Below are positions 14,472 through 50,755 of a DNA stretch of 64,000 nucleotides, in pieces. The stretch spans positions 248,001 through 312,000 of the forward strand of contig CP003179.1 in the NCBI GenBank assembly GCA_000237975.1, in the 5' to 3' direction. Position 1 is the first letter of the stretch. Each line of letters starts with the position of its first letter. This DNA comes from Sulfobacillus acidophilus DSM 10332 (GTDB taxonomy: Bacteria; Bacillota; Sulfobacillia; Sulfobacillales; Sulfobacillaceae). The notes under the pieces are model-generated. The model was not told the origin of the DNA and did no database searches. It worked only from the letters and a program-made list of their open reading frames with translations. Position numbers and translations under genes: made by a program.

Positions 14472-14547
14472 GGGCCGATGGCGCAGGGGTTAGCGCACCC
14501 GCCTGATAAGCGGGAGGTCGGTGGTTCAAATCCACCTCGGCCCACCA
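14472..14547 (+). tRNA. tRNA-Ile (GAU), operon A spacer
   Basis: It has a full cloverleaf: acceptor GGGCCGA/TCGGCCC, anticodon stem CCCGC/GCGGG with GAU at 14505-14507, T-loop TTCAAAT, and encoded CCA. It lies in the 16S-23S spacer, the usual place. Confidence 0.97.
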
Positions 14548-14578
14548 TCACGACACCAGGACGTTGACAACTTCAGAG

Positions 14579-17494
<2,916 letters not shown>

Positions 17495-17528
17495 TCGGAA
17501 GTTGTGAACGCCCTGGTGGGCGGTAAGT

Positions 17529-17650
17529 TTGGTCGGTGCGTTGCGCCGGGTGAGTTGACCCGTTCCCATGCCGAACACGGTCGTCCCCCGCCCGCACGCT
17601 GAGACTACTGGTCCCGTCGGGGACCGGGATCATCAGGCCGTGCCGACCAG
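17529..17650 (+). rRNA. rrf: 5S ribosomal RNA (operon A)
   Basis: The terminal stem TGGTCGG (17530-17536) pairs with CCGACCA (17643-17649), and the conserved loop segment CCGTTCCCATGCCGAACACG is inside. The length is about 120 nt. Confidence 0.92.
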
Positions 17651-17662
17651 TTATTGTGACGA

Positions 17663-17690
17663 GGCTGCCCCGCATACGGGCAGCCTTTTT
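17663..17690 (+). terminator. Terminator of rRNA operon A
   Basis: GGCTGCCC and GGGCAGCC form a perfect 8-bp stem followed by five T. It is identical at 25511. Confidence 0.93.
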
Positions 17691-18085
17691 GTGTTCCAAT
17701 GCGAAATCGAGCCAGAATATATTCGGCTGCCATTCAGGAACATTTATCCTTTTCGGGGTCCGTAACTTCCGATGCTTTTGCGGCCAATCCGGATTCGGCC
17801 GCGTGATGATCGAAGCGTAGTGCGCTCCTCAAGATGGTGGCAAATTACCGGCATGCCTAACGGATGACACCCGAATGTCCTCATTACCTTGTGTCTTCTA
17901 CACATGCGTCAAATCTTGTTGGAGGGCGAGAAATTGGGCGTGTAATCGGGGGATAAAATCCGTGCGGGACAACACGGTGAACGAGGCCGCCCGGGACGGG
18001 GGTAAAAGGGCAGATGGTCAAAAGTCGGGATTAAAGGCCATTACGTTATAATCAGGACAAGTGGCCGAAGGTAAGGAGCTACGAT
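17691..18085. other. Gene-free stretch after rRNA operon A
   Basis: No convincing coding frame or RNA is seen. A TATAAT box at 18047-18052 lies 34 bp before the next gene and may be its -10 element, although no good -35 is present at 17-18 bp. Confidence 0.5.
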
Positions 18086-22395: not shown

Positions 22396-22426
22396 TCACG
22401 ACACCAGGACGTTGACAACTTCAGAG

Positions 22427-25342
<2,916 letters not shown>

Positions 25343-49701: not shown

Positions 49702-50319
49702 GTGGAGTGGCTCGATATTTATGACGAGAACTTCGAACGCGTCGGGGTCAAGGAGCGGCAGGCGGTTCATCGTGACGGAGACTGGCACCGGACTTTTCAT
49801 GGTTGGATTGTCCGCTCGGACGGGCTTCTTTTGTTTCAGCTCCGAAGCGCGACGAAAGCCGACTATCCGAACCGTTTTGACGTGACCGCCGCCGGTCATT
49901 ATGCGGCCGGCGAAACGGGTTTGGCCGGTCTTCGGGAGGTCACCGAAGAGCTTGGGATTCACGTCAATCCGGACCAGCTGCAATATGGGGGCATTCGGGT
50001 ACGCGTCCGCCGACAACCGGGACTGATTGACCGAGAATTCTCCGAAGTCTATTTCATTCGGGATGACCGGCCCTGGTCCGCCTATCATCCGGCACGGCAA
50101 GAGGTGGACGGCTTGTTGGCCATTACCATCGATGACGGTCTGGCTTTATTCAGCGATCGGCTAACAGCCATCCACGGTCTATATTTCGATGCCGTCTCCG
50201 GTCGGGTCGATCATCGGCGGGTGTTGCGGGCCGAGTTCCTCGAAACCCGCGACCCCTATTTTTTGACGGTGACGATTATGGCGGGCCGGTTTCTCAAGGG
50301 TCAACCGATCGCGGTTTAG
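49702..50319 (+). CDS. NUDIX hydrolase, isopentenyl-diphosphate-isomerase-like
   Basis: The 205-residue protein starts MEWLDIYDENFERVGVKERQAVHRDGDWHRTFHGWI, the pattern of IDI-like NUDIX proteins. The Nudix box spans GHYAAGETGLAGLREVTEELGI (residues 65-86), with the REVTEE metal-binding core intact. Substrate is unknown; relatives hydrolyse nucleoside diphosphate derivatives or isomerise IPP, and the name should not be pressed. GTG 49702 follows GGGGGAGGG and lies 4 bp after the methylase stop, so they may be co-transcribed. Its 3' end overlaps the convergent thioredoxin-like gene by 26 bp. Confidence 0.85.
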   Translation: MEWLDIYDENFERVGVKERQAVHRDGDWHRTFHGWIVRSDGLLLFQLRSATKADYPNRFDVTAAGHYAAGETGLAGLREVTEELGIHVNPDQLQYGGIRVRVRRQPGLIDREFSEVYFIRDDRPWSAYHPARQEVDGLLAITIDDGLALFSDRLTAIHGLYFDAVSGRVDHRRVLRAEFLETRDPYFLTVTIMAGRFLKGQPIAV

Positions 50320-50626
50320 GTGCCGACACCCAGGCCAAAATTTGTTCGGCGGGCCGAAACCCGATGAGTCGGGCGACTTCTTGGCCGGCTTCGACCCGGA
50401 CCAATGCCGGGATGGCCTGAACATCCCATTGTTCGGCGATCTGGGGAAACGTGTCGGTATTGACTCGCACAAAAGTGACCTGTCCGGCTACCGATTCGGA
50501 CACCCGCTGCACGACTGGACCCAGTCGGCGGCAATGGGGTCACCAAGGGGCGGTAAAAACCAAAACGATCGGTTGCGTCGTGTCGGCGGCAAGCACCGGC
50601 CAGCTGATGGATTCATACTCGACCAT
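50294..50626 (-). CDS. Thioredoxin-like protein with in-frame UGA at the active-site Cys (candidate selenoprotein)
   Basis: From ATG 50626, with GAGGAGG upstream, the minus strand encodes a 110-residue thioredoxin fold if codon 29 (UGA, 50542-50540) is read through: PIVLVFTAPW-U-PHCRRLGP, then VRVNTDTFPQIAEQWDVQAIPALV with the cis-Pro. The motif would be WUPHC where thioredoxins have WCxxC. Frame and fold are intact on both sides, with no other stop until TGA 50296. Immediately downstream is a hairpin with a GGUC loop, as in bacterial SECIS elements. UXXC thioredoxin-like selenoproteins are known in other bacteria. Alternatives are a one-base nonsense change in a recent pseudogene or a sequencing error. 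No sel genes are in the window. Confidence 0.75.
50504..50531 (-). promoter_or_regulatory. Candidate bacterial SECIS hairpin
   Basis: In the mRNA, CCGC (50531-50528) plus CGACTG (50527-50522) pairs with CAGTCG (50517-50512) plus GCGG (50507-50504), with a 4-nt bulge on the 3' side. The loop is GGUC, starting exactly 18 nt after the UGA. The E. coli fdhF element, as I recall it, has the same loop at the same distance. Confidence 0.7.
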
Positions 50627-50755
50627 GGGAGATCCTCCTCTTCCGGTATACCCTTATCATACACGGACCCCACCGGAAAGAGTTTGGCCCCCGACCTGCC
50701 AGAAAACCTTTGGTTCGGATACGGTTCTCATCTGGACTCTAGGTCGCCTGGTTGA

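Follow-up and report, generated by a model that had tools for sequence, protein, structure and literature searches.

A thioredoxin gene of Sulfobacillus acidophilus with an in-frame UGA codon predicted to encode selenocysteine

We infer that a gene of Sulfobacillus acidophilus NAL-T (DSM 10332) very probably specifies a cytosolic thioredoxin with a redox role, into which selenocysteine (Sec) would be inserted in a SelB-dependent manner at an in-frame UGA codon. The gene itself, the conservation of its UGA codon and, in 11 of 15 orthologues, of a hairpin behind it, the Sec machinery and the protein fold were established by computation. The host is an acidophilic, moderately thermophilic Firmicute from mineral-sulfide environments, and its published genome (PMC3558970) consists of two contigs of 3,472,898 and 84,933 bases (3,557,831 in total). 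The window analyzed here is a stretch of 64,000 nucleotides of this genome (contig CP003179.1, positions 248,001 to 312,000); coordinates given without a contig refer to it.

Results

A thioredoxin reading frame interrupted by a single UGA

The gene and its signals, as deduced from the sequence, translation, Pfam, orthologues and predicted fold, are as follows.

50294..50626, minus strand: predicted Sec-thioredoxin gene, 110 residues with Sec29
50626 and 50296-50294, minus strand: ATG start (at 50626) and terminal TGA
50540..50542, minus strand: in-frame UGA, predicted Sec codon, residue 29, first position of WUPHC
50633..50639, minus strand: Shine-Dalgarno-like AGGAGGA, 6 nt 5' of the ATG

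A first-pass annotation of this region had described a thioredoxin frame broken only by a UGA at the first Cys of a WCxxC motif. Its coordinates were correct, and the strand, which it did not give, is minus. A plus-strand reading of 50294-50626 gave no meaningful product and was rejected. The internal UGA, in the context FTAPW-U-PHCRRLGPV, is the sole interruption of a frame that is otherwise open, and the translated product matches the Pfam family Thioredoxin (PF00085) over residues 14-101 with an E-value of 3.5e-21 and 75.6 bits, compared to a gathering score of 23.5. TIGR01068, the classical single-domain thioredoxin model, gave the best score among the thioredoxin-type models compared, with a match (E 1.2e-21) that lies below the cut-off of the model. 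The AGGAGGA sequence bears out the strong ribosome site proposed earlier. The same is true for the intact downstream fold, since an AlphaFold model built from a 15-sequence alignment was confident (pLDDT 86.9, pTM 0.80) and a Foldseek search with this model returned thioredoxins of the cytosolic type as the top PDB matches.

The UGA codon is conserved in an order-restricted clade

Searching 60 relatives yielded 14 orthologues, all within the order, with 39-57% identity and each containing a TGA. Together with the S. acidophilus gene, all 15 sequences carry the UGA at exactly the same codon in frames that are open on both sides, the extra TAA in the G022 match being the end of that gene. They span several genera and two families, and none of the 15 members of the clade has Cys at this codon. 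The first-pass annotation had asked whether close homologues have Cys or UGA at this codon, and had named stops scattered elsewhere in homologues as a finding that would speak against Sec; all orthologues have UGA, and no such stops were found. The S. acidophilus copy is the most diverged member, with the longest end branch of the Sec clade (1.27), which would fit a decaying gene whose Cys codon became a stop by mutation. The presence of the same UGA in all orthologues, with the frame otherwise intact, argues against both a sequencing error and a pseudogene confined to one strain. Moreover, other internal stops are absent, the ribosome site is intact and the synonymous sites downstream are frozen (see below), and we regard decay or error as exceedingly unlikely.

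In the 15-sequence alignment, the invariant residues W, P, C, R, R, L, P, D, A, the cis-Pro P73, and G extend through and far past the UGA. Sec insertion competes with termination at the UGA in all selenoprotein genes, and the codon might therefore act as a genuine stop, with the hairpin behind it regulating a short peptide or exerting selenium-dependent control of a downstream function. Conservation of the protein far beyond the UGA indicates that the downstream part is translated, leaving termination as the main outcome with hardly any probability.

When 63 thioredoxins were placed in a tree, the 15 sequences with Sec grouped in a single clade, with 100/100 support and in 100% of the bootstrap trees, that adjoins Cys thioredoxins. 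WCxxC-type Cys thioredoxins, whose Cys aligns to the UGA, are widespread in the same and in other genomes, and S. acidophilus itself encodes one with the motif WCMPC. Using a family profile on 398 genomes of the phylum, we found no UGA orthologues outside the order at an E-value of 1e-22, only Cys thioredoxins. A search of genome contigs returned only distant relatives (23-58% identity), mostly from Akkermansia, and those bearing the motif have WCPHC. The gene neighborhood varies by genus, with secE/nusG at the side of the gene in two, a leuS-like gene in two and an adjoining DNA methylase in five (names assigned by eye); due to these differences, we do not infer an operon partner. In the simplest history, the Sec form would have arisen once, close to the root of the order, and have been lost again in several genera.

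A hairpin conserved in 11 of 15 orthologues follows the UGA

50512..50527, minus strand: predicted bacterial SECIS hairpin CGACUG-GGUC-CAGUCG with a 6-bp upper stem (based on pairing, fdhF spacing and conservation)

The GGUC loop occupies 50521-50518 and begins at the 19th nucleotide after the UGA, so that 18 nt lie between them. This is precisely the spacing stated in the first-pass annotation, and its comparison with Escherichia coli fdhF is also exact, as we measured the fdhF sequence and found GGUC likewise after 18 nt. With a stem of 6 bp, a GGUC loop and a distance of 18 nt, the hairpin falls within the published limits for bacterial SECIS elements, i.e., an upper stem of 4-16 bp, an apical loop of 3-9 nt with a G in the first two loop positions, and a loop 16-37 nt from the UGA (PMC13188914).

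To estimate how often such a structure arises by chance, synonymous codons were drawn for the same protein stretch. A 6-bp hairpin with a GG loop at that spot appeared in 7% of the draws and any hairpin resembling a bacterial SECIS in 17%, and the folding energy was equalled in 4%. The amino acids RRLGPV thus favor such a hairpin, and in one sequence alone it is weak evidence.

Comparison of the orthologues is more informative. The GGUC-type hairpin is fully paired in 11 of the 15 sequences (66/66 pair cells), with A-U/G-U and C-G/U-A/U-G exchanges and one compensatory change among these 11. In shuffles, 99 of 500 reached the observed level of covariation, which is weak when taken alone. As to whether the hairpin co-varies between homologues, 11 sequences are paired with compatible changes, and the GGUC hairpin is lost in the four sequences of genus g12. 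When 22 four- or six-fold codon columns are ranked by conservation among the 11 orthologues, the hairpin codons CUG GGU CCA GUC take the first four places, with pairwise codon identities of 0.67, 0.82, 1.0, and 1.0 compared to a mean of 0.32 and a maximum of 0.49 in the other columns. The naive probability of these four ranking on top, which ignores relatedness, is 1.4e-4. The Pro codon CCA is fixed in 11/11 although it accounts for 6% of the Pro codons in the window, whereas the invariant Pro just past the UGA, outside the hairpin, freely uses all four codons. Judged by these codon columns, the conservation of the hairpin in the 11 sequences is not due to chance, and it is on this comparative evidence, not on the single hairpin, that the case rests.

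In genus g12 (L043, L047, L048, and L051), the UGA is kept, while the GGUC hairpin is broken by a Gly-to-Asp exchange (LDP) in combination with synonymous changes. A weaker alternative hairpin, which Sec decoding in this genus would require, can be drawn (GCCG.CGG/CCGUGGC, with the GG-containing loop CUGGAUC and -6.0 to -8.4 kcal/mol); among the four sequences, there is only one whose predicted optimal fold has it as its core. The g12 genomes contain selA and tRNA-Sec, and the GGUC hairpin may have been replaced by another one in this genus. Such a hairpin change under a constant UGA offers a natural experiment, if a small one, on how SECIS elements are recognized.

The genome encodes a complete Sec system

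The first-pass annotation had considered the absence of the Sec machinery as decisive against Sec. All four components are present in the S. acidophilus genome above the family cut-offs: selA (551 bits), selB (339 bits), selD (357 bits), and a tRNA-Sec with anticodon UCA and G73 (73 bits with the RNA family model RF01852). By eye, the C-terminal region of SelB resembles the winged-helix part. Two further genes of the same genome have an in-frame UGA.

G000:C1:1401608-1402540 (L027), plus strand: SelD with an in-frame UGA (SG-U-GCK), predicted selenoprotein
G000:C1:1555706-1555912 (L036), minus strand: second thioredoxin-like gene with an in-frame UGA (TPT-U-PYC)

The latter gene has a GG-containing hairpin, with the GG close to its loop, about 18 nt past the UGA and probably encodes a PDO-type selenoprotein. 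Matches similar to it, with one TGA each, occur in G004, G015, and G028. With all four components present, the Sec system is complete, and given the in-frame UGA codons of SelD and the PDO-like protein, it probably also acts on genes other than the thioredoxin. A Sec-containing formate dehydrogenase was reported for every Sulfobacillus genome that was studied (PMC4378227), and S. thermotolerans is reported to have a Sec peroxiredoxin (PMC7409299).

Across the genomes compared, selA exceeded the cut-off in 14 of the 15 that carry the UGA gene and in 33 of the 46 others, a difference that has the expected direction but is not significant (Fisher p 0.15). At the thresholds used, G036 (97% complete) has the gene and selB, with no match to selA or tRNA-Sec; this reflects either a gap in the draft genome or a recent loss. 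For G019 (89% complete), selA is present and no tRNA-Sec match was obtained.

The S. acidophilus genome also contains a 95-nt tRNA-Cys(GCA) with a long variable arm and U73 (G000:C1:1007562-1007656, minus strand; L010 1497-1591), which scores 56 bits with the tRNA-Sec model (cut-off 47). A canonical tRNA-Cys is found at 1348573. The genes next to the long-arm tRNA appear, by eye, amino-acid permease-like, acetamidase/formamidase-like and cytosine-permease-like. With its tRNA-Sec-like shape, the long-arm tRNA looks like a member of the selC* tRNA-Cys class (PMC7609411). Several relatives have a second tRNA-Sec-like match of similar score. Within the window, tRNAs at 14472 and 22320 belong to two near-identical segments (about 14500-17900 and 22400-24900), probably two rRNA operons.

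The long-arm tRNA-Cys bears on the question of whether a suppressor tRNA reads the UGA as Cys or another amino acid, which would make the protein an ordinary Cys thioredoxin. Some tRNAs of the selC* class have UCA anticodons (PMC7609411). The anticodon of the long-arm tRNA, however, is GCA, which does not read UGA, and the sole UCA anticodon found is that of the tRNA-Sec with G73. The conserved hairpin at the spacing used by SelB, together with selA, selB, and selD, also favors Sec, and we consider suppression very improbable. Decoding of the UGA as Sec, as proposed in the first-pass annotation, is thus supported by the machinery, the orthologues sharing the UGA and the hairpin retained in most of them.

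Discussion

Proposed mechanism

SelB recognizes both Sec-tRNA-Sec and a SECIS hairpin, and brings Sec to the UGA codon; S. acidophilus has every component of this scheme. In S. acidophilus, SelA and SelD would make Sec-tRNA-Sec(UCA), which would then be loaded on SelB. Bound to the hairpin just 3' of the UGA, SelB would supply Sec where translation would otherwise end. When Sec takes the first position of a thioredoxin motif, it attacks as the nucleophile, with Cys32 as the resolving residue. Sec would accordingly be the nucleophilic N-terminal active-site residue of W-U-P-H-C, and the protein would act as a thiol/selenol-disulfide oxidoreductase beside the ordinary WCMPC thioredoxin of the same genome. 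By analogy with DsbA, the PH dipeptide hints at a more oxidizing potential than that of the usual GP.

We tentatively put forward a further-reaching view, which we hold to be somewhat doubtful: the clade could be an order-restricted selenothioredoxin subfamily with a DsbA-like UPHC motif and a redox potential and partners unlike those of classical thioredoxin, in which one genus swapped its SECIS hairpin while the UGA was kept. If true, g12 would be a natural test of SelB-SECIS co-evolution.

Significance

Gene callers based on stop codons often miss genes of this kind or cut them short, and the present result would correct the annotation of a biomining bacterium. As selenoproteins of the genus, the literature found reports formate dehydrogenase and peroxiredoxin; the predicted protein would be a thiol-redox addition to these, and it extends Sec-thioredoxins to a clade that two bacterial families have retained. 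No Sec-thioredoxin of Sulfobacillus was found in the literature searched.

Comparison with known systems

The assignment of the gene to the established Sec-thioredoxin family is well supported, with Sec as the predicted residue. A UxxC thioredoxin is listed among experimentally characterized prokaryotic selenoproteins (PMC13188914), and Sec-thioredoxin was already included in surveys of 2005 and 2006 (PMC1088965, PMC1794560). One example is WP_010956703 (Kim et al., 2015, cited in PMC13188914). With this family (PF00085, UxxC), which has members in Treponema, Geobacter, and Carboxydothermus, the S. acidophilus protein shares the thioredoxin domain, the predicted Sec at the first active-site position and the bacterial Sec machinery. 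It differs in its PH dipeptide and in belonging to an order-restricted clade, which is set apart only from the Cys thioredoxins compared.

A thioredoxin fold combined with UxxC or a related motif is also found in other selenoproteins, such as PDO_seleno_TRX (TIGR02187), SaoT, TsoB, and the HUIPC type. Unlike members of the first and third of these, the S. acidophilus gene scores below the cut-offs (28.6 vs. 185 bits for TIGR02187 and 28.1 vs. 805 for TsoB). The hairpin resembles the E. coli fdhF SECIS in its GGUC apical loop and in the measured distance of this loop from the UGA. It has six uninterrupted pairs, whereas the upper stem of fdhF has another sequence and a bulge, and the host proteins are unrelated.

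The redox motif of DsbA is CPHC, in which PH lies between the two redox residues, and WUPHC has this dipeptide in common with it. In contrast to DsbA, the S. acidophilus protein, with its 110 residues, has neither the inserted helical domain nor an evident export signal, and the fold search places it with thioredoxins of the cytosolic type.
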